From assembly GCA_019637955.1 (NCBI GenBank), contig JAHBUS010000002.1, positions 62,001-126,000 of the forward strand: 64,000 nt of DNA. Reading direction: 5' to 3'. Position numbers and translations under genes: made by a program. This document shows positions 7,735-56,980 of the stretch, piece by piece. Every line of letters starts with the position of its first letter. The stretch's first letter is position 1. The notes beneath the pieces are model-generated. The model saw nothing but the letters and a program-made list of their open reading frames with translations, was not told the origin of the DNA and did not search any database. This DNA comes from Pseudobdellovibrionaceae bacterium. Its GTDB lineage: Bacteria; Bdellovibrionota; Bdellovibrionia; Bdellovibrionales; Bdellovibrionaceae.

Positions 7735-9426
7735 ATGAATATGTTTGATGCCTTACAATTCGTTCTTTTTATCGGGCTTCTGACGTTGCTGACCCCGCCG
7801 CTCGGAAAGTTCATGGCCCGCGTGTTTCAAGGCGAAAGGACATGGCTCCATCAACCTCTAGGCTGGCTTGAGCGCCTTACTTATCTGGCCGGCGGCGTCG
7901 ATGAGAAAAGAGACATGGGGTGGAAGGAGTACGCGCTCGCGCTCCTTTGTTTCAACCTTATCGGACTTGTCGTTTTGATTGTCCTTCAAATGATCCAGGG
8001 TGGTTTGCCGGCCAATCCGCAGGCCTTTCCCGGCGTAAGCTGGCATTTAGCATTTAATACTGCCGCAAGTTTTGTCGGAAACACCAATTGGCAAAGCTAC
8101 GCCGGCGAGACGACGATGAGCTATCTCACGCAGATGCTTGGGCTCGCCTTCCAGAACTTTGTCAGTGCCGCCGTCGGGATCGCCGTCGCCGTCGCTCTGA
8201 TAAGAGGGATCGTCAGAAAATCCGCGCAAGGAATTGGAAATTTCTGGGTCGATCTCACTCGTTCCACGATCTACGTTCTGTTGCCAATCGCCTTTGTGCT
8301 GGCCCTCGTATTCGTCTCTCAAGGCGTGGTTCAAAACTTTTCGCCGTACCTCGAAGCTCTGACCCTTGAGGGTGCGAAACAGATCCTTCCATTCGGGCCT
8401 GCGGCATCTCAAGTTTCAATCAAGTTTCTTGGCACGAATGGCGGCGGCTTCTTTAATGCGAATTCCGCGCATCCGTTCGAGAATCCGACCGCTCTGGTGA
8501 ACCTTCTCCAGATGCTCGCTATTTTCATCATTCCGGCCGCTTTGACATATACGTTCGGCGTGATGGCAAACGCGAAAAAGCATGGATGGCTTATCTACGG
8601 CGTAATGATGGCGCTGTTTGTGAGTCTGACCTGCGCATCTCTTTATTCTGAATACTCGTACAATCCAATCGTCGGTCAAGGCAGCGTCATGGAGGGGAAA
8701 GAGGCGCGATTCGGAATCTTCAATAGCATTCTTTTTTCCACCGTTACGACGTCCGCATCGTGCGGGGGGGTGAATGCGATGCACTCCTCACTTTCTCCGC
8801 TTTCGGGCGGGATCGCTATGTTCAATATGATGCTTGGAGAAATCATTTTCGGCGGCGTCGGAGCGGGCCTCTACGGAATGCTGCTTTTCGTTCTACTCAC
8901 GATCTTCTTGGCGGGGCTTATGGTCGGAAGAACGCCTGAATATTTGGGAAAGAAAATCGAAGGACGAGAAATGATGATGGTGATTTTGGCGATCCTCGCT
9001 CCTTGCGCGACGATCTTGCTGGGAACCGCCTTTTCCTCCGTTCTTCCCGCGGGCCTTTCGAGTCTTGCGAACAAAGGCCCTCACGGGTTTTCGGAAATTC
9101 TCTACGCCTTCACGTCCGCCGCCGCCAACAATGGTAGCGCTTTTGCTGGACTTAACGCGAATACCCCTTACTACAACGTCATGCTCGGCCTCGCCATCCT
9201 ATTTGGGCGGTTCTTGATTATCGTGCCGATCCTGGCGGTTGCCGGAAGCCTTGCGAATAAGAAAATCTCTCCGGCCTCGTCGGGAACTTTCGAGGTGGAT
9301 ACGCCGTTGTTTGCGGCTCTCTTGATCGGTGTGATTCTCATCGTCGGTGCGTTGACTTTCCTGCCGGCACTTTCTCTTGGCCCTATCGTTGAGCACGTTT
9401 TGATGCTGAACGGGCGGACTTTTTAG
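7735..9426 (+). CDS. kdpA: KdpA, potassium-binding channel-like subunit
   Basis: The 563-residue membrane protein has the four filter-loop repeats of Kdp[51 protein letters not shown] and [13 protein letters not shown]. KdpA is the selectivity-filter subunit of the high-affinity K+ P-type ATPase and passes K+ through an intersubunit tunnel to KdpB. Length matches the family (about 560). The gene is followed after 11 bases by kdpB. Confidence 0.98.
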
Positions 9427-9437
9427 GAGTTTCAATT

Positions 9438-11522
9438 ATGAATAAAACCGAAAATGGTCTTTTAAAGCGCGAGCTCCTGATTCCTGCAATCAAGGAATCA
9501 TTTTTGAAACTCGATCCTAGAGTTCAAATGAGAAACCCTGTGATGTTCGTCACGCTGATCGGCGCGGTCTTAACCACCCTGAGCGCGATGTTCAGCATCG
9601 GACGTGGGTTCAATGCGTTTGAAGTCCAAATCGCACTCTGGTTATGGTTCACGGTGATTTTCGCCAATTTCGCCGAGGCCATTGCGGAGGGACGCGGAAA
9701 AGCGCAGGCAGAGGCCTTGCGCAAAACCAGGACTTCGACCGAGGCCCGCTTGATGAAAGAAGGAAGAGAAACGCGCGTTTCTGCCTCCAGCTTAAAGCTG
9801 AACGACCTCGTTGTTTGCGAAGCCGGAGATGTCATTCCGGGGGATGGAGAAGTCGTCGAAGGAATTGCCAGCGTCGATGAATCGGCCATTACGGGAGAAT
9901 CCGCGCCCGTTATTCGGGAATCCGGCGGTGATCGAAGCGCCGTAACCGGCGGGACGAGAGTCATTAGTGATCGCATCGTTATCCGTATCACGGCGGAGGC
10001 TGGAAGCAGCTTTTTAGACCGCATGATCGCCCTTGTTGAAGGAGCCAAGCGTCAGAAAACCCCGAACGAAATCGCTCTGAGCATCGTCCTTTCGGGATTG
10101 ACCATCATTTTTTTGCTCGCGGTCATGACCTTGAAGCCGTTCACCAACTACGCGGCGTCGGCTTCCGGGCAAGACCTCTCGGGTATCGTGACGCTGCCAG
10201 TTTTGGTGGCGCTCCTCGTTTGCCTGATTCCGACGACCATTGGCGGACTCTTAAGCGCCATCGGGATTAGTGGAATGGATCGCCTTATCCAAAAAAATGT
10301 CATTGCGACGAGCGGTCGTGCGGTGGAAGCCGCTGGCGACATCGACGTTCTTCTGCTCGACAAAACGGGCACGATTACGCTCGGAAACCGAATGGCTTCA
10401 AGTTTCCTGCCGGTTCATGGCGTGGATGTCAGAAGCCTTGCGGAGGCCGCTCAGCTTGCGTCGCTGGCCGACGAAACCCCGGAGGGTCGCTCGATCGTCG
10501 TCCTTGCCAAAGAGAAGTTCTCTCTACGAGCGGAAACGATCCAGCCGCATGAAGCGACCTTCGTTCCGTTCACGGCGCAGACTCGGATGAGTGGAATCGA
10601 CTTTAGTCAGGATGGTAAAGTCGTGAGCATCCGAAAAGGGGCCGCGGATGCCATCATCAGTTCCGTTCAAAGCATGGGAGGAAAAATCCCTTCCGATTTA
10701 AAACGGATTGTCGATGAGGTAGCCCAAAAGGGAGCCACCCCTCTCGTTGTGGCTCACGGAAAGGGCATCCTCGGAGTCGTTGACCTTAAGGATGTCGTCA
10801 AAGGCGGAATACGGGAACGCTTTGCGGAACTTAGAAAAATGGGCATTCGCACCGTTATGATTACGGGGGACAACGCAATGACGGCTGCCGCGATTGCGGC
10901 GGAAGCCGGAGTTGATGACTTCATGGCGCAAGCTACGCCGGAGACGAAGCTCAAAAGGATTCGTGAAGAACAAGCCAAGGGACACCTTGTTGCCATGACG
11001 GGAGACGGGACCAATGATGCGCCGGCGCTCGCGCAAGCCGACGTCGGCGTTGCGATGAATACGGGTACGCAGGCCGCGCGTGAAGCCGGAAACATGGTCG
11101 ATCTCGATAGTAACCCGACGAAGCTTATCGAGATCGTTGAAATTGGAAAGCAGTTGCTCATGACCCGCGGAAGCCTGACGACGTTCAGTATTGCGAATGA
11201 CGTGGCAAAATATTTTGCGATTCTACCGGCCCTTTTCGGCTCTCTTTACATCGCCCAGGGAGCGAAACAAGGCCCCTTGTCCGTTTTCAACATCATGGGT
11301 TTGCAATCTCCGCAAAGCGCCATTTTGAGCGCGGTGATCTTCAATGCTCTGGTCATCGTTGCCTTGATTCCGCTCGCCTTGAGGGGGGTAGCTTACCGTG
11401 CGGAAGGCTCCTCTGCGGTTTTACGTCGAAATCTTCTGATCTATGGTCTTGGTGGAATCATCATCCCTTTTATCGGAATCAAGCTCATTGATGTTCTTAT
11501 CACTTCGATAGGTCTTGCTTAA
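9438..11522 (+). CDS. kdpB: KdpB, P-type ATPase catalytic subunit
   Basis: The 694-residue protein shows all class IA P-type ATPase marks: the actuator TGES motif in [12 protein letters not shown], the phosphorylated Asp in [14 protein letters not shown], the nucleotide-binding KGAADAI region, and the hinge [18 protein letters not shown]. It hydrolyses ATP and couples this to K+ movement through KdpA. TGES includes the Ser that is an inhibitory phosphorylation site in E. coli KdpB. A full-length gene 11 bases after kdpA and 14 bases before kdpC. Confidence 0.98.
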
Positions 11523-28331: not shown

Positions 28332-30098
28332 TTAGGCAGCTCGGCGCAGGGGAGCGGCATCCTCATCTTGGTCCTGGTGAACCTCGGAGGTCTTGGCGAG
28401 GTCCGTCGTCGAGTTCTGGCCGCGGATGGTGGAGACCAGTCGAGCGACGGCTTCATTCAGTGAGCGCGCTTGCTCGGCCAGGTGCGAGGCGGAACCGGCC
28501 GATTGTTCGCTGGTCGCAGCGTTGAGCTGAGTCACTTGATCCATCTGCTGCATGGCCTTGGTGAGCTGCTGCACACCTGCGGCCTGCTCTTGACTGGCGT
28601 TCGAAATTTCGTCGGCCATGTGATTCACGTTCGAGATGTTCTCGACGATTTCGTCTAAAACGCCGCCGCATTGACGGGCGACGCTCGTTCCGGTCTCGAC
28701 CTTTTCCCGGCCCTTTTTCACGAGCTCCTCGACACGCCCCTTTGTTTGGATCGCGATGGTCTCAACTTTCCGGATACTGCCTTCGAGCATGTCCGAAATT
28801 TCTTTGGCGGCGGCGCCGCTCATTTGCGCGAGGCTTCCGACCTCTTCGGCGACAACGGCAAACCCTTTGCCATGCTCGCCCGCCCGCGCCGCTTCAACGG
28901 ATGCATTGAACGAGAGAAGCTTGGTTTGAAAGACGATTTCATTGATGACTTTGGTTTTCTCGCCGATTTCACGGATGACGCTGACGATTTCGTTCATTTC
29001 TCGGTTGGACTGGTCGATCTGGGAGATAATGTCGTTGTTACTTTGATTGATTTCATCCATCGAAGTCATCATCTGCTCGACCACTTGGCGACCTTGCTCG
29101 GCCTTACCCCGCGAGTCCGAAGCGGTGTGCGACGTGTTCTTGGCATTGTCGGAATTGCGTGACACCATCGAACTCATTTCCTCGATAGAGGACGAAGTCT
29201 CTTGGAGTGCGGCGGCCTGTTCGGTCGTGGCGCGCGCGAGATCTTGCGCCGAGCCGGCAATTTCCTGCGAGGTCGAATTGACGTGATGACTGGCTTTGGC
29301 CAAGGACTGAGCGACATGGTTCAAAGCATTGAGAGGCGCGCTGACCATCAGTGAACCGAGCAAAACAGCGACCAGCGCGCCCGCGGCGATCGCCAAGATC
29401 AAAGTTTTTTCGGGAGAGACGGTGTGGCCGGCGGTTGCGGCGGCGGCGACTTCATCTTTGTTCTGGGAAATGGCAAAGACGCCATGAAGTTTTCCATCGC
29501 TCCAATTTTCCATCGGAAAGCCCAAGATATCGCGCCCATTGCCCCAAGGACTTGTCTGCGGATCTCCATGGCAAACCAAACAGCCCTGTTTCTGACTCAA
29601 GCGGATGGGGCGGTACATGGTGATGAGTTGGCCGTCTTTCAAAACCAGCTCCTGCAGTTCGGGGTCGCTTTCAAATTTTTTGAAGATGGTCATTTCTTCT
29701 TCGCTGGCGGCATTTTCGCGGCGCCGCGGTTCGTTTGAGAACACCCGAAACTTGTATTTGTCAAAATCCGCATTTTTGCGTCCGATCTCCATTCCGGCGT
29801 AAATCGGAACTTGGTTCAGAATCTCTTTTTTATCCTGAGGAGTCAGTTGTTCGGCCGACTGGTACTTGGTGCGGAATTTCTCGACGACGTCTGCAAGTCC
29901 GCCTTGATTGGCGACATAGGAGATGGCCGCCGAGAGCTGAGCGTGGATCGTCCGTTCTTTATTCTCAATGCCGGTCTCAAGATCTTTGTCGGTGAAGTGT
30001 AAGAAGCCCCAAATCGAGACGGCGGCGCAAAGTCCGCAGGACAGTCCCACGATCAGAAGAACGCGGCTTCGAAGGCTGAAGTGATCAAGGATCGACAT
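28332..30098 (-). CDS. Methyl-accepting chemotaxis protein with haem-binding DUF3365 sensor
   Basis: The 588-residue protein has membrane helices at about 11-31 and 231-251. Between them is a DUF3365-type periplasmic domain with a c-type haem motif CLVCH (173-177). After TM2 it has a long coiled-coil signalling domain with the hairpin tip EEVGSLAQMSGAAAKEIS. The usual HAMP is short or absent. It has no C-terminal CheR/B pentapeptide. AAGGTGG precedes the ATG at 30098. The haem implies sensing of redox state or a gas such as NO or O2. It lies 126 bases after a dihaem cytochrome gene on the same strand. Confidence 0.9.
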   Translation of the reverse strand: MSILDHFSLRSRVLLIVGLSCGLCAAVSIWGFLHFTDKDLETGIENKERTIHAQLSAAISYVANQGGLADVVEKFRTKYQSAEQLTPQDKKEILNQVPIYAGMEIGRKNADFDKYKFRVFSNEPRRRENAASEEEMTIFKKFESDPELQELVLKDGQLITMYRPIRLSQKQGCLVCHGDPQTSPWGNGRDILGFPMENWSDGKLHGVFAISQNKDEVAAAATAGHTVSPEKTLILAIAAGALVAVLLGSLMVSAPLNALNHVAQSLAKASHHVNSTSQEIAGSAQDLARATTEQAAALQETSSSIEEMSSMVSRNSDNAKNTSHTASDSRGKAEQGRQVVEQMMTSMDEINQSNNDIISQIDQSNREMNEIVSVIREIGEKTKVINEIVFQTKLLSFNASVEAARAGEHGKGFAVVAEEVGSLAQMSGAAAKEISDMLEGSIRKVETIAIQTKGRVEELVKKGREKVETGTSVARQCGGVLDEIVENISNVNHMADEISNASQEQAAGVQQLTKAMQQMDQVTQLNAATSEQSAGSASHLAEQARSLNEAVARLVSTIRGQNSTTDLAKTSEVHQDQDEDAAPLRRAA

Positions 30099-30224
30099 GC
30101 AAACCACCTTTTCAAAGAAGGTGTCGGCACGTCGACGTCTGAATTTAAGGGGAGGGGTGAAGCAAAGATTCACGACGTCGAATATTAATCAAGTCTTGAG
30201 GTCCGAGATGGAGAGTTCTCCATC

Positions 30225-31091
30225 TCACTGACTGCGGATGTAGCGATACATCGCTTCGATTTCAACATCGGTCATAGCGGCGAAAGACGTCCAAGGCATG
30301 TAGGCCGGATTGATTTGTTGACCGTCGGGTTTGGTTCCGGTTTTGACCGCGGTGGCGAACTGCTGAAGGGTCCAAGTTTGCACGCGTCCGGTCGGGGTGA
30401 GGTCCGAGGCAGGGGGCCACTCGGGCGGCACGCCGGGAATGGGTCCGCCTCTCAGGTCCGCACCATGACAACCCGTGCAACTTGCGATCATGTATTTGCC
30501 GTACACGGGCTCGGTGCTCGGCGCGAGGCTCTCCAGTGGAACCGCGGTCCGGTCGATCAGCTCGGCTTGGAACATCAACGGAAACTTGCCCGCGAGGTAG
30601 AGAACTTTTCCCAAAGGACCGACGCTGAGGGCGGCCGGCTGATTTTGAACGGGAGCGGCGGTGCGCAAATGCGCGATGATTTTACCCAGATCCTCGTTGG
30701 TCAGCTGCGCGAATTCGGTTGAGGGCATGAAGATCAACTTTCTGCCTTCGGGGTTCAGGCCGTAACGGACCGCCCGCACCCAGTCTCTAACGCCATAATC
30801 TTTGGTGGCTCCCGCCGGGGTGATGTTCGCTCCGGCGAAGAAGCCCACGGGGCCGGCATCGGCAAAAACGCGGCCGCTCAGATCGGCGCCGTGGCAATCG
30901 TAGCAACCTTTGACCTGCACGAGCCGGCGCCCCTCGGCGAGACTAGCAGCGTCGGTGGGGAGCGAAATTTCGGGAGGATCGAAAGCGATTCGCTCCCGCC
31001 GATGGGCTTCATAACGAAAATGAACGACGGCGGCGGCCAAACTGAGTGCCACGGCCAATGCGAGCAAGACTCGCCCCAGAATTTTGAGCAT
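30225..31091 (-). CDS. Membrane-anchored dihaem cytochrome c
   Basis: The 288-residue protein has one N-terminal helix (LGRVLLALAVALSLAAAVV) followed by two class I cytochrome c domains. The first has CYDCH (63-67) with likely axial Met in IFMPSTEFAQ; the second has CTGCH (205-209) with AYMPWTSF. TTGAGG precedes the ATG. It probably passes electrons at the periplasmic face. Its promoter region carries two TetR operators shared with the divergent regulator. Confidence 0.9.
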   Translation of the reverse strand: MLKILGRVLLALAVALSLAAAVVHFRYEAHRRERIAFDPPEISLPTDAASLAEGRRLVQVKGCYDCHGADLSGRVFADAGPVGFFAGANITPAGATKDYGVRDWVRAVRYGLNPEGRKLIFMPSTEFAQLTNEDLGKIIAHLRTAAPVQNQPAALSVGPLGKVLYLAGKFPLMFQAELIDRTAVPLESLAPSTEPVYGKYMIASCTGCHGADLRGGPIPGVPPEWPPASDLTPTGRVQTWTLQQFATAVKTGTKPDGQQINPAYMPWTSFAAMTDVEIEAMYRYIRSQ

Positions 31092-48040: not shown

Positions 48041-48403
48041 ATGCGTTTGTTTTTGCTCACTTTTTTGATGATGGCGCCGCTGGCCGCGAAAGCCACAATT
48101 CTGAACTGGGACCCCCGCATCAGCTTGTCTGAGGCCCGCACCGAAATGGTGGTCGAGGCGTCGACGATGATGGAAACCGAGTGGGCTGAAGGCACGATCA
48201 AGTGCGACTTTGAAAGCCAAGAGCATCTCGAACTTCTGCGCGCGGATTTCGATGGCGCGCAAGTGAAGACCTTCACCGTGGCTTCGGCCGCGACCGTGGG
48301 CGGTCCCACCTGCCCCGGACAAGTTTTTTCTTGTGAGACCACGTTCACCTGGCTCTCGTTCCAAGAGTGGGACGTGAAGAGCGTTTGCGAAGACCCTTCT
48401 TAA
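48041..48403 (+). CDS. Small periplasmic protein of unknown function
   Basis: The 120-residue precursor has a signal peptide (LFLLTFLMMAPLAAKA) with GGGAGGGAGA before the ATG. The mature part has three Cys (TIKCDFES, GPTCPGQVFSCET, KSVCEDPS, the last pair near the end). It precedes the membrane gene by 12 bases and starts the cytochrome block. No family recognised. Confidence 0.65.
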   Translation: MRLFLLTFLMMAPLAAKATILNWDPRISLSEARTEMVVEASTMMETEWAEGTIKCDFESQEHLELLRADFDGAQVKTFTVASAATVGGPTCPGQVFSCETTFTWLSFQEWDVKSVCEDPS

Positions 48404-48415
48404 GGAGAAACCCCG

Positions 48416-49021
48416 ATGGTACAGGTCGATATTTTTTGGTCGTACGGTTTGAGCGCGGGACTGGCTTTGGCCGGTCACAAAGTTCTGAAGAACACCAAGT
48501 CTTGGTATAACAACGAGATCTTCTTGTTCAGCGTTCTTTGGACCGCGTGCATCTTCGCACCCTCGGGCCTGTACCTGCTCTGGACGAACCCCGCTTGGGA
48601 GACCATGTTTGTTGCGCGCAACTTTGAGAGTCTTCCGCCGTGGCTGGTCGCTCTGTTCGCGATCACCAATGTCACGCAAGGCGTGCTGGGCTTTTACGTG
48701 ACGGCCAAACTCATCCGTGCGGACAAATGGCGCGCGGCTGTTTGGCAGCCGATCTGGTCGCACATGGCGATGTTCTTTATTCTGGTTGTGGGTTGGGATG
48801 GAACCGGCTACCGCCGCTTCTTCTACGCGGGCACCGGTGAAGACTGGCACACGGGCGTGGAGTATCCGATCACGGCGTTCTTCTCGTCGCCGATTTTCTA
48901 CGCGCTGTTGATCCTGGGCGTGTTTTTCATTCCCTCGTACTTAGGTCTTGTTCGCCACTTTATGCGCGCCTCGACTGTCTCCGAGGCGGCTCGTGCCGCC
49001 TCGACTTCCGTCGAAAAGTAA
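48416..49021 (+). CDS. Polytopic membrane protein of unknown function
   Basis: The 201-residue protein has about five membrane helices (WSYGLSAGLALAGH, FSVLWTACIFAPSGLYLLW, WLVALFAITNVTQGVLGFYV, SHMAMFFILVVGW, IFYALLILGVFFIPSYLGL) and Arg/Trp-rich loops (GYRRFFYAGTGEDWHTG). It lies between a small exported protein and the dihaem cytochrome gene. It may be the inner-membrane partner of those cytochromes; that is inference only. Confidence 0.65.
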   Translation: MVQVDIFWSYGLSAGLALAGHKVLKNTKSWYNNEIFLFSVLWTACIFAPSGLYLLWTNPAWETMFVARNFESLPPWLVALFAITNVTQGVLGFYVTAKLIRADKWRAAVWQPIWSHMAMFFILVVGWDGTGYRRFFYAGTGEDWHTGVEYPITAFFSSPIFYALLILGVFFIPSYLGLVRHFMRASTVSEAARAASTSVEK

Positions 49022-49047
49022 CCGTAACATTGTTTGTTGTCGTCCTT

Positions 49048-49107
49048 TTGAAAGAACCGACCCTAAACTGAAATCGATCCGACTTTCAGTAAAAGAGGTT
49101 CTTTCAA
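49048..49107 (+). promoter_or_regulatory. Structured leader hiding the cytochrome start
   Basis: An 11-bp perfect outer stem pairs TTGAAAGAACC (49048-49058) with GGTTCTTTCAA (49097-49107), the last base being the A of the start ATG. An inner 7-bp stem pairs ACTGAAA (49067-49073) with TTTCAGT (49084-49090). Together they would close the ribosome-binding region of the next gene. It fits an RNA thermometer or a regulated leader; no known riboswitch consensus is recognised. Confidence 0.5.
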
Positions 49108-51794
49108 TGAAGAGAGTTTCCTGGCTCCATAAAGGAAGTGGCTCGCGCCACTTCGCCGTCGTCGCCCTGGCTGTTCTTGCCGTCGCGCTTGTCGTCCCGG
49201 CATGTCTTTCCACCAACAACCGTTCGCAACCAGAGAATGCCAAGCGAACACCTTCTTCTGAGCTTGAGGGTGTTTACGATAAATTCTCGGAAAAAGGTTA
49301 CGAAGAGGCCACCCACCGGCAAATGCAAGAAGGGCGCACCCTCTCGCGCGAGCAGATCGTCAATGAGATGGCTGGCCGCGAGATTTGGTACAAAAGTGCG
49401 CCGAATGGCCGCTTTCATACTTACGTTTTCGGTCAACGCGTGAACGCGCCCATCGATTGGTACCGCGTCTTGCGCACCGACCAGCGCTGGCAGCGCTTCA
49501 ATATCTGGGGCGTGATGAACGATCCCGATTGCTGCACGCCCGGCCGCGATTGCGATCAAAAAGGCGCTAAGTTCAAGGGCCGTTCGGTCACGCTGCAAGA
49601 CACTTACGGTCTCGATTACTGCCCTGGTGACGAAGAGCTCTTGGGTTACGTCGGTGCCGAAGACTCGGATTACCGCAAGGTCGATCCGGCGTGCTCGAAC
49701 CCCGCGGTCAAGGCGGCGGATATTTTAGACAAGAATCCCCGCGAAAACGCCTGTGAACTGGCGTTCGGAACTTCGACCGGCGCGGTTGGTTTCCGTAAGT
49801 TTCCGAATCCTCGTTTCAATGCCGCCCGTTGGAAAAAAATGAATGAAGCCGAACTGGCCAAGAAAGGCCAGCGTTGGGACGGCACGAGCTGGGATGGTCT
49901 GACGCTTCGTGAAGTTGAGGGCTCGGTAGAGCCTCCCTTCCGCGTCGCGATCAGCTGCGCGTCTTGCCACGTCTCGTTTGATCCTTCGCGCCCTCCGCGC
50001 GACCTGAATCATCCCGAATGGAACAATCTCTCGGGTACGGTCGGCAATCAGTACATTCAGATCTCCGAGATTCTGGGTTCGGGAACTCGTCCCGATTCGC
50101 TCGAGCAGCAGCTTTTCATCCCGATGGGCCGCGCGGGCGCGACCGACACTTCGGCCGTTCCGAACGACACCGTCGGCAATCCCGGAACGATCAATGCGGT
50201 GATCAATATCCCGCAGCGTCCGCAGTTCACCGACAAGGTGTCGCGTTGGTTCCATGTCCCGTCTTGCGATCCTAAAAAAGGCGATTGCCAAGAGGTCAAT
50301 TACAAGACCGGTCAGAAAAAATACTGGCAGTGGGACACCAAAGACATGAAGGTCTTCCATATCTTGAAAGGCGGCGAGGACTCGGTGGGGGCGGATCTCG
50401 CGGTTCAGCGCGTTTACGTCAACATCGGCATGTGCGCCGAGCAGTGCTGGATGAACCATCACATGGACCTGCGCGCCCTCAATCCGCACGACCGCGGATT
50501 CGGCCAGACACCCTTTAATATCGCCCAGTGCCGACGCGACTGCGCTCCCTGGCGCGCCAACGAAGACCGCGTGACCGACATCGTTCAATTCTTGTTGTCG
50601 GCGCGCCCGACGGATTTGAAGCAAGGTCTGAAAAACACGTCGAAAATCTCGGCGGACAGCCCTGAAGAGCTCGATGCGAAATTCCAAGATTTCCTCGAAG
50701 GCCGTTACGGCGCGGGCTCCGTGGCTCGTGGCCGCGACATTTTCGCGAAAAACTGCGCGAGCTGCCATTCGTCACAAAATCAGAACAAAGCGGACCTGAC
50801 TCCCACGGCCGAAGATTTCACGTCGGTGGATTTCGCCAAAGAAGTCACGCTTCCTTCGGGCGAAGTGATCCGCGCCGATTGGATGGGCAACGAAAAATCA
50901 ACCAGCGCTTCGGAGATCGGCACGTACCGTTGCCGCGCTCACCACACCAATCACATGAAGGGCCATCTCTGGGAGCAGTTCGCGTCCAACTCCTATTGGA
51001 ACAAACCCGCGACCAGCCGCGACCCGAAAGGTAAACCGATCGCGGGCGGTCCGGGCTACTACCGAAACATCTCGCTCATCAACGTTTGGGCCTTCGCGCC
51101 CTTCTTGCACAACAACGCCGTGGGACCCGAGGTTTGCGGACGTCCCGAGGGTGCCGGTCTCGAAGTGCATAGCAACACTTATGAGGGCGAGCAGATCGAT
51201 CCCAAAACCAAACGCACGTGCGATATGAAATTCGATGCATCGATCGAAGGCCGCCTAAAAGTGTATGAGGCTTCGATGGACGAACTTCTCACCGAAGAGT
51301 CCAAGCGTAAGAAAAAAATCACGCGCGCCGACGTGCCCATCCGTTTGCCTTTGGGCATGAGCCTGAAGTCCTTGGGTCAGCCCGCGCGCAAGTTCTATCT
51401 CGAGTTTCCCGCGGGCACGCCCATCGCGACCATCGGCAATTTGGATCTGAAGGGTCTGGTCGCCGATATCATGGGGAGCCTGAAGTACATCGACAATGAG
51501 GCCGAGTACAACAAGTACTGGAACGAGCAGGCCGGTGTCGGCGGCGCCGAAATGGCGGCGGCGGTGAAGGGAACTCTCGCGCTGTTCAAAAACATCAAAG
51601 ACGTGCAGGCGATCAACGGTGTCATCACCGAACTGCAAGCCTCGATCCGCGAGAACAGCAATGAGCGTCTGAAAACGTACATGAAGTATTACTCGAACTG
51701 CTTGGCCTCTTACGAAAATGTCGGCCACAACATCGGTGTGAATCTTCCTCAACAGGACAAGAACGCTTTGAAGGCCTTCTTGGCGACATTCTAA
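49107..51794 (+). CDS. Large dihaem cytochrome c lipoprotein
   Basis: The 895-residue precursor has a probable lipobox (VVPAC, Cys33) and two CASCH haem motifs at about 284-288 and 550-554. Additional Cys clusters include NDPDCCTPGRDCD and CAEQCWMNHH. The segment SLINVWAFAPFLHNNAVGP resembles the conserved Trp/Phe/His region of dihaem oxygenases and peroxidases of the RoxA/MauG/CcpA superfamily. It may be a surface dihaem oxidase or peroxidase. I chose the ATG at 49107 because the upstream open frame lies in the structured leader and the preceding gene. Confidence 0.85.
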   Translation: MKRVSWLHKGSGSRHFAVVALAVLAVALVVPACLSTNNRSQPENAKRTPSSELEGVYDKFSEKGYEEATHRQMQEGRTLSREQIVNEMAGREIWYKSAPNGRFHTYVFGQRVNAPIDWYRVLRTDQRWQRFNIWGVMNDPDCCTPGRDCDQKGAKFKGRSVTLQDTYGLDYCPGDEELLGYVGAEDSDYRKVDPACSNPAVKAADILDKNPRENACELAFGTSTGAVGFRKFPNPRFNAARWKKMNEAELAKKGQRWDGTSWDGLTLREVEGSVEPPFRVAISCASCHVSFDPSRPPRDLNHPEWNNLSGTVGNQYIQISEILGSGTRPDSLEQQLFIPMGRAGATDTSAVPNDTVGNPGTINAVINIPQRPQFTDKVSRWFHVPSCDPKKGDCQEVNYKTGQKKYWQWDTKDMKVFHILKGGEDSVGADLAVQRVYVNIGMCAEQCWMNHHMDLRALNPHDRGFGQTPFNIAQCRRDCAPWRANEDRVTDIVQFLLSARPTDLKQGLKNTSKISADSPEELDAKFQDFLEGRYGAGSVARGRDIFAKNCASCHSSQNQNKADLTPTAEDFTSVDFAKEVTLPSGEVIRADWMGNEKSTSASEIGTYRCRAHHTNHMKGHLWEQFASNSYWNKPATSRDPKGKPIAGGPGYYRNISLINVWAFAPFLHNNAVGPEVCGRPEGAGLEVHSNTYEGEQIDPKTKRTCDMKFDASIEGRLKVYEASMDELLTEESKRKKKITRADVPIRLPLGMSLKSLGQPARKFYLEFPAGTPIATIGNLDLKGLVADIMGSLKYIDNEAEYNKYWNEQAGVGGAEMAAAVKGTLALFKNIKDVQAINGVITELQASIRENSNERLKTYMKYYSNCLASYENVGHNIGVNLPQQDKNALKAFLATF

Positions 51795-51807
51795 GGTGGA
51801 GGCTCAG

Positions 51808-52716
51808 ATGAAAAAAACATTCTTGGCAGTCGTTGTTATTCTGACCGGCCTCGCCGCCCAAGCTCAAGTACGCTTCATGCCCTTGTCGCAAGGACCTGGC
51901 GATCCGAAACACTATTCAAAAAAACCCGATTTTGCGGTTCTCGAGGCGAAGTTGCCCCTGACGCCGAAAGAGCGTTTGGGACTCACGCGTGAAGCGCTGA
52001 TGAAAATGGACCAAGAGCAGCTCGATCAGCTGTACGGACGTTTGCAATCGGGTCCCATCCCGGTGGGCGATTACAAAGGCACCGTGCTGATCAAGAACGA
52101 AACCATCGTTGAAACCGAGCAAAAGCTTTTGAAGTCTTTGTTCGAGAAATCGATCTGGGGCGTGTTCGGTAAGCTCGCGCTCGCGGGGATTTGCATGAGC
52201 CGTGACCGTATGGAGTGCCTGTCGGAGTGGCTCTGGTACGGGAAGCGTTTCTACGCGGTGAATGAATTCGGCGAACTTCAGCTTCGCAACGCGGTTTCTC
52301 CGCGCGTGCGCACCGAGTATCTGCTCAAAAAAGCGGGCCTCGAGAAGATGATCGAGCCCCTGAGCCGCGCTCCCGTTCAAAAGTTTAACGGCAGCGACAT
52401 GCTCATGATGTTCCCCGCGCACGTCTATTGCGGTTTGAGCTTGGTCGACACCCGTCACGAGTCGATCATCATCGACTACGCGTACGGCGACGACTTCAAA
52501 CCCTACATCCCCGAAATCGACGGGATCGTGGGCCGCGAAGGAAAATGGATCCGCGACGAAATCCGCATGATCCGCCCGGGCTTGTACCTGGGTCGCGCCT
52601 ACATGGACCGCATCTTCCTGCTCAACTTCGTTCTTGAGAACAAAGAGGTCGCCAAGACCAATACTGAAGTCAGCGCTTGGAAGAACAAATGCTGGACCGG
52701 AGATTCTTGGCAGTAA
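51808..52716 (+). CDS. Exported protein within the cytochrome block
   Basis: The 302-residue precursor has a signal peptide (KTFLAVVVILTGLAAQAQ) and GGAGG before the ATG. The mature protein has PAHVYCGLSLVDTRHESI, then IIDYAYGDDFKPYIPEIDG, and ends WKNKCWTGDSWQ. No haem motif. Its stop overlaps the start of the next gene in TAATG, so it is coupled to the second cytochrome. No family recognised; it is likely an accessory protein. Confidence 0.7.
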   Translation: MKKTFLAVVVILTGLAAQAQVRFMPLSQGPGDPKHYSKKPDFAVLEAKLPLTPKERLGLTREALMKMDQEQLDQLYGRLQSGPIPVGDYKGTVLIKNETIVETEQKLLKSLFEKSIWGVFGKLALAGICMSRDRMECLSEWLWYGKRFYAVNEFGELQLRNAVSPRVRTEYLLKKAGLEKMIEPLSRAPVQKFNGSDMLMMFPAHVYCGLSLVDTRHESIIIDYAYGDDFKPYIPEIDGIVGREGKWIRDEIRMIRPGLYLGRAYMDRIFLLNFVLENKEVAKTNTEVSAWKNKCWTGDSWQ

Positions 52717-55235
52717 TGAAACGCAAGTTTGCCGCGCTTCTTTTGATCCTCGCGGGTGCTGGAGCCCTTCATTGGTGGCTTCAGCGCTCGGTGACATGGA
52801 CGCAAGAGCTTGAACTGGCAAGTAGCGGTGCGGATTCGATGCCGGGCGAACTTTCGATTCGCCCTTTTGACGAACCCTTCTCGGTTCCATCGACGGGCTC
52901 CAGTCTTTTTGACAAAGCCTTCTCCGTTAAGAATGCTCAAGGCCTGCGTGAGTACCAAGTTCCGTATCCCTTCACCAAAGTGATCGACCGCCTCAAAGAG
53001 TTGAGCGGCGGCGTGGCGCCGCAAATCACCATCTTTCCGATGGGACGGTCGCTCCAGCGTTCGGCCGCGATCGAAGGGATGCGAGACGTTCACAATCTCG
53101 ATCCATTTTACCGCTTTCCGCGCATCGTGATGGGCTTCGATCAAGACTCGATCAACGCGCCCAACGGCATTCGCCTTAATTTCAAAGAGCGTCTTTACAT
53201 CGGAATGAACGAGCGCTCCAAGTTGATGGAAGTCATCAGCTACAATGACGAAGCCGGACGTTTCGAGTACCAAGTCGTGCGCGATTACGAGCCCGGAAAA
53301 AGTGCCCACGTCTTTTATGCCAACCGGCAGCTGTGTCTCACCTGCCACCAGAACCAAACGCCGATCTTCTCGCGGGCACCTTGGACCGAATCCAATGCCA
53401 ACCCGGCCATGCAAGAAGGATTGCTACGCGTTCTGAAGGGGACCTTCGGCGATCAACCTTGCGCGCAGAATCCGCACCAACCGTTCTGCTTTCAAGACAA
53501 CGAGGCGGGACGCCAGTACCGGTACTGGGGCGCGCCGCTGATCGTGGATCAACAGGTTCCCTACGCTCTGGATCAGGCCACTAAATCCGGCAATTACTTT
53601 CATGCGTACCACAAAATGTTTCAGCGCTTGTGCTCGGAGCTGTCGTGCCGCAAAGAACTGCTGAAGCAAATCTTCTTGTACCGATTGACCGATCAACAGG
53701 GCCTTTTACAGACCACCGACGTGCGCGACTTCAATCGCAATCTCAAAGAAAAGTGGGCCAAAGAATTTCCGCAAGGCCTCAAGCTTCCCGAGGCCGCCAT
53801 TCCGAACCGTGATCCGCTGCTCAATCAAAAAGACCGCGGCCGCGAGGATTTGAGCTTGATCGACGGCAAACAGTCGCACGTCAAAACGGGCTTGGAGCAA
53901 GTTCTCGCCAATAGCGACGTTCCCGGCGAGTTTGAGCCCCTGCTCCCGCGTCCCGCCAGCGAGTTCTGGCAAAATCCCATGATGGAAGGCGGGTTGATCT
54001 CGCGTCTGGTGTTTGGGTACTCCGGGTTTTTCACCAACTCGGACGTGCGCGTGATCGATGACAATCTCGCCGCGCGTCCGGTGGACCCCGATCTCACCGA
54101 AACGCAGGTCAGCGTCTGTAAAATCAAGCGCGGTGCGAACACGGCCAAGCCCGACTACTCCATCAATTGTGCTTACGGCCCCGATCAAAAAGGCGTGCAG
54201 TTCTCGAGCTACATCCGCGTGGTTCCCAACACGGCGGACTTGATCGGAACCTCGCGCCAGCTCAAACTTCTGTTTCCTTCACTTCGCTGCGATCCCAACG
54301 TTCTGGCCACGCCCGAAAATCTGGCGGCGGGAAGTGCGTGCCCGCAGGTGGCCAACTTGTTCACGCGGGTGCGCTCGCTTCCGAATGGCGGGACGCGCTT
54401 GATGTTCCAGACTCAAAGCGGTTTGTCCGTTCGTCTCTGGGATGGACGGCGTCTCGCGCCCGTGACGCTGCCGGCTTTGAATCCTGGAGAAGAGAAAACG
54501 GTTTCTCTCCCTTTCCAGCTCGTGCGCGACACCGCCCCCTTGCTCATCGCTCTGGAAACGGCTTACCAGTCGGGTGCTTTCAAAAAGTTTGTCGATGGAC
54601 CCGCGCTCAATCGATTGTCGGCGATGTCGATGATCTTGTCGTTCCTCGGAACGGCCAACGATCAAGTTCAAACGCTGACCAAAGAAATGCAGACGCTCAA
54701 AAAAGAGACCGAAGCGCCTGAAGACGAGCTGCGTGAGCTTCCGATCAATCCCATCGAGCGTGCCCTCGCGCTTTCGACCCGAAACTGCGCGGCTTGCCAT
54801 TACAACCGCGAAGGCATTCCGCCCGCGTTCTTGGGCGGACCGCAAGAAACTCTGAGCGGCAAAGACAAATGCTCGAAGCTTGCGACCTGCTCGGCCCGTA
54901 TGCTCTACCGCCTCAAGATGTGGGAATGCGCCGAGGCCGACTACAAGATCAAGAAGACGCCCATGCCGCCGCTCTCAAGGTTGCGCGCGATGGGAACGGA
55001 TGTCGATCACTGGGTGGGCGTGGACCGCAAACAGTTGATCGAATCGCTGCAGGCGGTGTTTCCGTCGGCAGCGCTCGTCAAACAGTTGGTTCAATCAGGA
55101 ATTTCAGAGGGCGAAGCGCAAAGCTTCGTTCAAGAACTGAGAACAGCTTCATGCCCGAAGGCTCAGAGCACGCTGTTCGAAAAACTTCCGCGCTGCGATC
55201 AGGATCTGAGACTCGACAGCGCTCTTTGCAATTAA
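52716..55235 (+). CDS. Large dihaem cytochrome-like protein
   Basis: The 839-residue protein has an N-terminal membrane anchor (FAALLLILAGAGALHWWLQ) and two haem motifs, CLTCH (207-211) and CAACH (691-695), widely separated. A third Cys-rich segment is near SACPQVANLF, and another near CSKLATCSARMLYR. The start ATG overlaps the upstream stop. The end overlaps a convergent gene by four bases. Related to uncharacterised multidomain cytochromes of predatory bacteria by general layout; substrate unknown. Confidence 0.8.
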   Translation: MKRKFAALLLILAGAGALHWWLQRSVTWTQELELASSGADSMPGELSIRPFDEPFSVPSTGSSLFDKAFSVKNAQGLREYQVPYPFTKVIDRLKELSGGVAPQITIFPMGRSLQRSAAIEGMRDVHNLDPFYRFPRIVMGFDQDSINAPNGIRLNFKERLYIGMNERSKLMEVISYNDEAGRFEYQVVRDYEPGKSAHVFYANRQLCLTCHQNQTPIFSRAPWTESNANPAMQEGLLRVLKGTFGDQPCAQNPHQPFCFQDNEAGRQYRYWGAPLIVDQQVPYALDQATKSGNYFHAYHKMFQRLCSELSCRKELLKQIFLYRLTDQQGLLQTTDVRDFNRNLKEKWAKEFPQGLKLPEAAIPNRDPLLNQKDRGREDLSLIDGKQSHVKTGLEQVLANSDVPGEFEPLLPRPASEFWQNPMMEGGLISRLVFGYSGFFTNSDVRVIDDNLAARPVDPDLTETQVSVCKIKRGANTAKPDYSINCAYGPDQKGVQFSSYIRVVPNTADLIGTSRQLKLLFPSLRCDPNVLATPENLAAGSACPQVANLFTRVRSLPNGGTRLMFQTQSGLSVRLWDGRRLAPVTLPALNPGEEKTVSLPFQLVRDTAPLLIALETAYQSGAFKKFVDGPALNRLSAMSMILSFLGTANDQVQTLTKEMQTLKKETEAPEDELRELPINPIERALALSTRNCAACHYNREGIPPAFLGGPQETLSGKDKCSKLATCSARMLYRLKMWECAEADYKIKKTPMPPLSRLRAMGTDVDHWVGVDRKQLIESLQAVFPSAALVKQLVQSGISEGEAQSFVQELRTASCPKAQSTLFEKLPRCDQDLRLDSALCN

Positions 55236-56317: not shown

Positions 56318-56383
56318 GCGGGCATCTTGTCTTTACAGGTTCCGGGGAGCAACTCAAAATTGAACCTGGCACGAGGAGGTCCC

Positions 56384-56980
56384 ATGAAAAGCACCACCAT
56401 CACGTTCATCTTTTTGGCATTCTCCGTGGGATCGTTCGCGAATCCTGAGGCGGCGGCCCCGCCGTCATCGGCCGCCGGTGCCCCGGTCGCCGTAGGCGCC
56501 GCTCCGGTCTCGAGTCTCTCGTGGTACCAGGACGCCAAAGAGCAGTACAAGATTCAATACCCGTCGAAGTGGAAGCTGCAAACACCCGATCCCAAGAAGG
56601 ACGCTTCAAGCCGTCAGCTGGTGACATTCGCAAAAGCCGACTCGACGATTATGGTGAGCGTTCTGAAGGGCAAAGCCGAGGGCAAGCAGACCGCCGCCGA
56701 CTTTCTGAATCAGCTCGATCAATCGCGAAAAGTTCAAAATTTGATTCCGGAAAAACAGCGCTCACTTCCCCAAGATGTCGCGGACCGTGCGAAAGTCGTT
56801 GAAGCCGCTGTCGGCTACTACGAGATCGCGGGCAAGAGCGCGGTTCTACAAAGAGTGCTGTGCTTGAAGAAGAAGGATGGCCAGATTTTCGTGATCACCG
56901 GGACCTTTCAGAAGGCCCGCGAAGCGGACGAGGACCCTCTGATCGAGTCGATCCTCGCAAGTTTTCAAGTCACGAAATAA
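56384..56980 (+). CDS. Exported PsbP-like protein
   Basis: The 198-residue precursor has a signal peptide (TTITFIFLAFSVGSFANP), GAGGAGGT before the ATG, and an Ala/Pro linker. The domain reads WYQDAKEQYKIQYPSKWKL, ending FVITGTFQKAREADEDPLIE. This is the general form of PsbP-like or DcrB-like small periplasmic domains (a Trp-x-Leu after a YPSxW motif). Partner unknown. Confidence 0.65.
   Translation: MKSTTITFIFLAFSVGSFANPEAAAPPSSAAGAPVAVGAAPVSSLSWYQDAKEQYKIQYPSKWKLQTPDPKKDASSRQLVTFAKADSTIMVSVLKGKAEGKQTAADFLNQLDQSRKVQNLIPEKQRSLPQDVADRAKVVEAAVGYYEIAGKSAVLQRVLCLKKKDGQIFVITGTFQKAREADEDPLIESILASFQVTK

Follow-up and report, generated by a model that had tools for sequence, protein, structure and literature searches.

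Which of the five open reading frames (ORFs) that follow one another on the plus strand at positions 48,041–55,235 of a Pseudobdellovibrionaceae genome segment belong together, and what might they do? The segment, hereafter the window, is a 64,000-nucleotide stretch of contig JAHBUS010000002.1, from a 3.77-Mb genome of the phylum Bdellovibrionota. An initial annotation had described the five ORFs, here called genes A to E, as one envelope redox block containing two giant dihaem proteins; reading the sequence again recovered all five at the same coordinates, but our comparisons narrowed the conserved unit to three genes, C-D-E, a module related to RoxA and MauG in which C is accompanied by two proteins of unclassified families (D and E). 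We propose, with a probability of about 0.42, that C is an exported dihaem oxygenase rather than a peroxidase or a protein modifier, based on the sequence comparisons described below.

Gene C (49,107–51,794, + strand) encodes an exported 895-residue dihaem protein of MauG/RoxA fold, a probable lipoprotein. It is separated by 13 nt from gene D (51,808–52,716, +), which encodes an exported 302-residue protein of an unclassified family, and D in turn overlaps gene E (52,716–55,235, +), encoding an exported 839-residue dihaem protein, likewise of an unclassified family. The stop-start overlap of D and E, TAATG at 52,714–52,718 (+), was seen in the sequence as the initial annotation had reported. 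CxxCH motifs begin at residues 284 and 550 of C and at residues 207 and 691 of E, with none in A, B or D. When the five block proteins and seven neighbours were compared by tblastn with 16 related loci, C, D and E were adjacent in three genomes of the same family (G208, G212 and G214) and in one of another family of the phylum (G273), and wherever else in Bdellovibrionota a close C was found, the order C-D-E was kept (4/4 loci). Across 368 genomes of the phylum, C was matched in 14, with a close C in five including the source genome, and E in 23; D, the most constant partner of C, was matched in six, five of which are exactly the five with a close C. This co-occurrence has a hypergeometric probability of 1.1e-10, a figure that ignores that four of the five genomes belong to one family, and in the sixth genome (G367) D stands alone. 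G273 additionally holds two D paralogues, one on either side of C (L052:5856-6347 and 8997-9677).

The same arrangement recurs in a second phylum. Scanning 84,980 species genomes, a C profile gave 103 confirmed relatives, of which the best 80 were kept as loci (L064–L143). Seventeen of these (L064–L080) come from Ca. Accumulibacter, Zoogloea, Propionivibrio and other Rhodocyclaceae, and from metagenome-assembled genomes labelled Gamma-, Alpha- or just Proteobacteria, with C proteins 39–44% identical to window C on the best segment. The order C-D-E was found in 15 of the 17, each time followed by two RoxA-like dihaem ORFs of ~500 residues, and in the remaining two the contig stops short, after C in L078 and after D in L079. 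These extra proteins matched the Pfam family RoxA-like_Cyt-c above its cut-off in 3/3 scanned, of which two are from L064 and one is from L100, and a profile made from 20 of 52 RoxA-like rows (A4) finds RoxA (4b2n) at 7.8e-26. In a quick maximum-likelihood tree of 61 C proteins, midpoint-rooted and calculated without bootstrap, the proteins of C-D-E loci form one group of 16 (Shimodaira–Hasegawa-like approximate likelihood-ratio test, SH-aLRT, 100). Since the CxxCH motifs, the order of the genes and their neighbours are conserved in both phyla, C-D-E is a real unit beyond chance, and its distribution is wider than supposed, in wastewater Proteobacteria more than in predators. The initial annotation had suggested surveying other predators for the set; a general predator trait was rejected, as a close C occurs in only 5/368 phylum genomes and the nearest other hosts are wastewater Betaproteobacteria.

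In three of the five Bdellovibrionota C-D-E loci (G208, G212 and G214), a gene for a GMC oxidoreductase lies directly after E. No GMC gene (PF05199) was found in the source genome by a search that was positive in 5/14 control genomes, and the second of the extra RoxA-like proteins, a query run without a positive control, had no match there either; C-D-E must therefore work without them in this organism. Lacking a GMC partner, the window set does not qualify as a GMC-linked periplasmic dehydrogenase system.

Genes A and B stand outside this unit. By translation, A (48,041–48,403, +) encodes a small exported protein of 120 residues and B (48,416–49,021, +) a polytopic membrane protein of 201 residues, with gaps of 12 nt between A and B and 85 nt between B and C. 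Neither had a tblastn match in the four other Bdellovibrionota C-D-E loci. A was found in one of 59 genomes, its own, and B in four of the 368 phylum genomes, namely the source genome and three others (G013, G014 and G220), none of which has a match to C, D or E. A five-gene unit was rejected because neither A nor B accompanies C-D-E elsewhere, so that the earlier description of an uncharacterised envelope redox set holds for C, D and E and not for A and B as members. B itself is 61–68% identical in G013, G014 and G220, which are scattered relatives with no common neighbour seen.

C carries two invariant haem-binding motifs, CASCH at residues 284–288 (49,956–49,970, +), corresponding to RoxA C191–H195 and probably the catalytic haem 1, and CASCH at residues 550–554 (50,754–50,768, +), haem 2. 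Both are kept in all rows of a 13-row profile (A1) and of a 49-row profile (A5, from 48 of 82 C ORFs and the window protein), and 80 of the 82 ORFs have two CxxCH motifs, L079 and the truncated L088 having one. Window C has a Sec signal with an odd lipobox (VVPAC, with Cys 33); the lipoboxes of the four Bdellovibrionota orthologues are clearer (TTSC, SSC, SSC and AGC). The A1 profile matched RoxA at E 3.1e-4 in three collinear stretches. NF040606 (di-heme-cytochrome C peroxidase) matched 49/49 C proteins at E ≤ 0.01, and PF21419 (RoxA-like_Cyt-c) matched 10/13 at E ≤ 1 and 12/49 at E ≤ 0.01, with window C below the curated cut-offs of both (31 of 150 bits for NF040606). Among the same 49 proteins, the NCBIfam rubber oxygenase models RoxB, RoxC and RoxA matched 14, 6 and 3, respectively, at E ≤ 0.01, window C being matched by none of the three at that threshold. 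Comparison of A5 with A4 by hhalign gave 98.8% over the C-terminus with its GH motif, and a whole-length run aligned only 29 columns.

An AlphaFold2 model of C built from the 49 rows (predicted local distance difference test, pLDDT, 72.3; predicted template modelling score, pTM, 0.77) matched MauG with a VIA-align Z of 12.1 (257 residues, 3.8 Å), the MauG-like copper-homeostasis protein 6e1c with Z 11.6, and RoxA (4b2n) with Z 9.8 (388 residues, 5.0 Å), in which model residues 68–895 lie on chain residues 28–662 at 17% identity over the structural alignment; the next unrelated chain reached Z 4.1. Profile matches and fold together support the membership of C in the dihaem MauG/RoxA superfamily, to whose oxygenases the initial annotation had likened a segment of it, and we regard the fold class of C, as well as the conserved C-D-E unit, as firmly established.

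Alignment with RoxA also allows the haem surroundings of C to be compared. In RoxA, H195 sits at the O2 haem, W302 lies between the haems, F317 and F301 lie by the bound O2, and H641 is a haem ligand, according to two reports (PMC6797691, PMC4496055). W448 of C (50,448–50,450, +; invariant in 49/49, MAFFT alignment) aligns with W302, and F470 (50,514–50,516, +; HMMER and MAFFT agree) aligns with F317, which stabilises bound O2 in RoxA; at position 470, 18 of the 49 C proteins have F, 28 have I and 3 have V. At the C-terminus, H874 (51,726–51,728, +; 49/49) was aligned through the GH motif in two profile alignments with RoxA H641, which we take to be the distal ligand of the second haem. The equivalent of RoxA F301 is not kept in C (Q446-C447).

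A distal set of Gln, Pro and Glu is common to bacterial cytochrome c peroxidases (bCCP), MauG and BthA, being Q103, P107 and E113 in MauG, as described in the BthA paper (PMC6405878). In the alignment drawn through RoxA, this set of the bCCP/MauG peroxidases is not kept in C: P469 is present in 46/49 proteins, and the residue six positions on is C, A, G, L or N and Glu in 0/49. Because the residue at the F317 site is hydrophobic, and the Pro is kept but never the Glu, the alignment suggests a RoxA-like distal pocket in C, lacking the peroxidase Glu at the aligned position. This putative pocket is flanked by a twin CX3C motif (C443/C447 and C475/C479; 50,433–50,543, +), which lies on both sides of W448 and F470 and marks the C-D-E clade, being present in 16/16 of its members and in 0/45 other C proteins. 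Three further cysteines, C142, C143 and C149, are kept in 12/12 proteins of the clade, compared to 2, 0 and 0 of 37 others. Since the twin CX3C is clade-specific, and disulfides are uncommon in this peroxidase family according to the BthA paper (PMC6405878), we make the specific prediction of a disulfide-stapled hairpin over the catalytic haem.

The two partners belong to no described family. For window D, no Pfam family was found and NCBIfam gave noise only, and a PDB sequence search with the D profile (A7; 30 of 39 D rows and window D) gave nothing useful. W143 and several Tyr and Gly residues, Y260 among them, are kept in 31/31 rows; window D has a Sec-type signal, and a lipobox pattern is present in D from 14/16 C-D-E loci. 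E has one haem motif, CLTCH, at residues 207–211 (53,334–53,348, +; 9/9 and 15/15) in a conserved N-terminal domain, and another, CAACH, at residues 691–695 (54,786–54,800, +; 15/15) in a C-terminal cytochrome c domain, where M750 within KTPMPP (54,963–54,965, +; 15/15) is a candidate sixth haem ligand. All 22 listed E proteins with two CxxCH have an MP motif 42–59 residues past the second of these. Such an MP motif after CxxCH is typical of His/Met class I cytochromes, and the C-terminal part of E is probably a His/Met cytochrome domain.

E had been taken for a second protein of the same kind as C, which our comparisons do not bear out. The E profile (A6; window E and 14 of 15 E, excluding L075 with its one CxxCH) aligned with the C and RoxA-like profiles by hhalign at 13.9% and 16.8% probability, over the CxxCH only, and kinship of E with RoxA/MauG by sequence was rejected as unsupported, since the profile comparison fails beyond that motif. 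No Pfam or NCBIfam family covers E, a PDB sequence search with its profile gave nothing useful, and a model of E (pLDDT 65) had no Foldseek match at E ≤ 0.001 and a VIA-align Z of at most 6.5, on a beta-barrel stretch at residues 452–610. The initial annotation had tied its proposal to conserved CxxCH motifs in the two large proteins and to their occurring together; the motifs are conserved in both, yet E relatives also occur alone, with no C, D, GMC or RoxA-like gene in the stretches around 15 E loci from other Bdellovibrionota. In one further genome (G243), a 566-residue RoxA-like dihaem ORF adjoins E. The E family as a whole is wider, comprising mostly solitary, unclassified dihaem proteins of ~430–810 residues in many Bdellovibrionota (L149–L163, L060–L063).

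The sister group of the C-D-E clade comprises 63 loci (L081–L143) from Acidobacteriota, Rhizobiaceae, Gilvimarinus, Chromobacterium, Cupriavidus and others, in which C is 24–30% identical. A GMC oxidoreductase is encoded within the locus in 56/63, less than 1 kb from C in 53 and on the same strand in 52. Other neighbours are a D relative in 21 loci, a DyP-like protein in 17, an unclassified 433-residue family in 17 (X433, for which no Pfam family was found) and a patatin-like phospholipase in 10. The D proteins of these C-GMC clusters are a ~145-residue form starting MAYDV, with no visible signal peptide. A recurrent cluster combines GMC, short D and a DyP-like protein with two other families, the unclassified one of ~433 residues and one of ~400 residues (e.g. 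L121:13766-18238, L134:13910-18342 and L101:14335-18817); the latter we took to be catalase-like, a label for which Pfam gave no support in the one member scanned (L121). In addition, a compact C relative of 736–766 residues occurs in other Bdellovibrionota (L054, L055 and L009), followed by cupredoxin and aldehyde dehydrogenase genes in L054 and L055; of the dehydrogenase, just the beginning is visible in L009.

From these comparisons we infer coordination states, O2 use, a substrate class and roles for D and E as follows. C-D-E would be a single operon encoding an exported oxidation system of the dihaem type, with C, a long member of the MauG/RoxA superfamily, as its catalyst. The N-terminal haem of C (H288) would probably be five-coordinate, with a non-polar pocket (F470) in which it binds O2 (or a hydroperoxide), and W448, as a bridge, would store and pass electrons together with the second haem (H554/H874). 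By analogy, the substrate would most likely be hydrophobic, unsaturated or alcohol-bearing, for example a lipid or isoprenoid, given the kinship with RoxA and the fatty-acid dioxygenase PA2077 and the neighbours of C relatives (a GMC flavoenzyme, two RoxA-like enzymes and a patatin-like phospholipase). E may be a dedicated redox partner, through which C takes electrons or to which it gives them, and D an accessory protein.

Several observations weigh against an oxygenase. The A5 profile alone does not list RoxA at E ≤ 0.001, Foldseek E-values for the C model are not significant (best 0.78), and the model is of middling quality (pLDDT 72). At the F317 site, most relatives from outside the C-D-E clade have I, and 33/37 proteins of the sister clade have a Glu immediately preceding the inter-haem Trp (column 446), which could have a role in peroxide chemistry. 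GMC, phospholipase and similar neighbours are found mostly in the sister clade rather than in the C-D-E clade, and no lipid gene adjoins the window copy of C-D-E. To our knowledge, no close relative of C has a tested function.

The structural comparison itself raises the idea of a MauG/MbnH-type enzyme, in which C would oxidise Trp or Tyr residues of a partner encoded next to it, D or E, with peroxide and by way of a bis-Fe(IV)-like state: MauG is the best match (Z 12.1), 6e1c is close (Z 11.6), the inter-haem W448 is invariant, and the constant partner D has its own invariant W143 and Y260. MbnH converts a Trp of MbnP to kynurenine. We nevertheless find such protein modification doubtful for C, where the canonical distal Glu is missing at the aligned position and RoxA aligns over more residues than MauG (388 versus 257); moreover, the short D of the C-GMC clusters, with no visible signal peptide, should therefore not meet an exported C. 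A detoxifier of the bCCP type, with E feeding electrons, H2O2 or lipid hydroperoxides being reduced and D as an accessory, is also unlikely in our estimation. The match of NF040606 to 49/49 C proteins, the probable His/Met electron-transfer domain of E, the GMC enzymes beside relatives, which may make H2O2, and the sister-clade Glu before the inter-haem Trp speak for it. However, window C is far below the NF040606 cut-off (31 of 150 bits) and twice the usual size, and the Gln-Pro-Glu set reported for bCCP, MauG and BthA (PMC6405878) is not kept.

Four CxxCH motifs over two exported proteins, and weak Pfam matches of both C and E to MtrC/MtrF-type domains, would also fit a system for conducting electrons or for surface oxidation that involves no oxygenase chemistry, the other option in the initial annotation, but those matches are at noise level (E-values 0.04–0.05), proteins of ~850 residues with just two haems each are involved, the fold of C is that of an enzyme and no porin-like gene was recognised within the block. 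This makes a conduit improbable, and for C we lean towards an oxygenase or peroxidase over an electron wire. A latex-cleaving rubber oxygenase of the RoxA type is in turn hardly credible despite the RoxA fold and the conserved equivalents of W302, F317 and H641, as the RoxA, RoxB and RoxC models match 3, 14 and 6 of the 49 proteins, weakly, and window C not at all, and identity to RoxA is 17% on the structural alignment. Taken further, the preferred oxygenase reading would make C-D-E a new envelope lipid- or isoprenoid-oxidising class: a RoxA-type dioxygenase whose twin-CX3C, disulfide-stapled pocket acts as a redox lock on haem access, together with E as its own dihaem reductase, representing a new family of cytochromes, and D as a carrier protein of a new kind. 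It would be used by a few predators and by wastewater bacteria that accumulate polyphosphate; in the latter, the pathway would be extended by the two additional RoxA-like enzymes. We offer this extended version as speculation and consider it unlikely.

Among known systems, RoxA (4b2n), RoxB and RoxC share with C the dihaem fold, the inter-haem Trp, a hydrophobic residue at the F317 position and the C-terminal GH ligand. C is ~200 residues longer than RoxA, with a CxxCH spacing of 266 compared to 199 residues, and differs from all three in its twin CX3C pocket, its fixed partners D and E and the weak matches to their family models. MauG and 6e1c have the same fold as C (Z 11.5–12.1); unlike MauG and, by description, BthA, C has no distal Glu position and is more than twice as long. 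NF040606 and PF21419 match C relatives, but window C falls under both curated cut-offs. The P. aeruginosa 10S-dioxygenase PA2077 and diol synthase PA2078 (FadCcp), by their description in passages of PMC4496055, are also large RoxA-related dihaem oxygenases, and an envelope lipid is proposed as substrate here too; those passages name no D or E partner. Searches of the open-licence PMC literature found no paper on the C-D-E module.

As for the surroundings of the block, recent acquisition of foreign DNA, judged by composition, was rejected (GC 0.55–0.57 both inside the block and around it), and a promoter and terminator scan did no better than on shuffled sequence. Three genes downstream, at 56,378–56,977, is a gene for a PsbP-like exported protein (PF18933, 1.5e-5, just below cut-off). 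Elsewhere in the window, a chemoreceptor gene (28,335–30,104, −; MCPsignal 4.7e-42), whose product has a Tll0287-like domain at its N-terminus (9.3e-21) as well as a CxxCH motif, adjoins a gene for a dihaem cytochrome c (30,228–31,091, −): a candidate haem-based redox or gas chemoreceptor.

Tested functions are scarce in the large RoxA/MauG dihaem superfamily, to which the C-D-E module adds a clearly recognisable clade whose partners are fixed, D and E being without any Pfam or NCBIfam family. Its hosts include bacteria of practical importance, Ca. Accumulibacter and Zoogloea, and the combination of a twin CX3C at the putative catalytic haem with a constant gene order yields testable predictions on how electrons are fed to the enzyme and how access to its haem may be gated.

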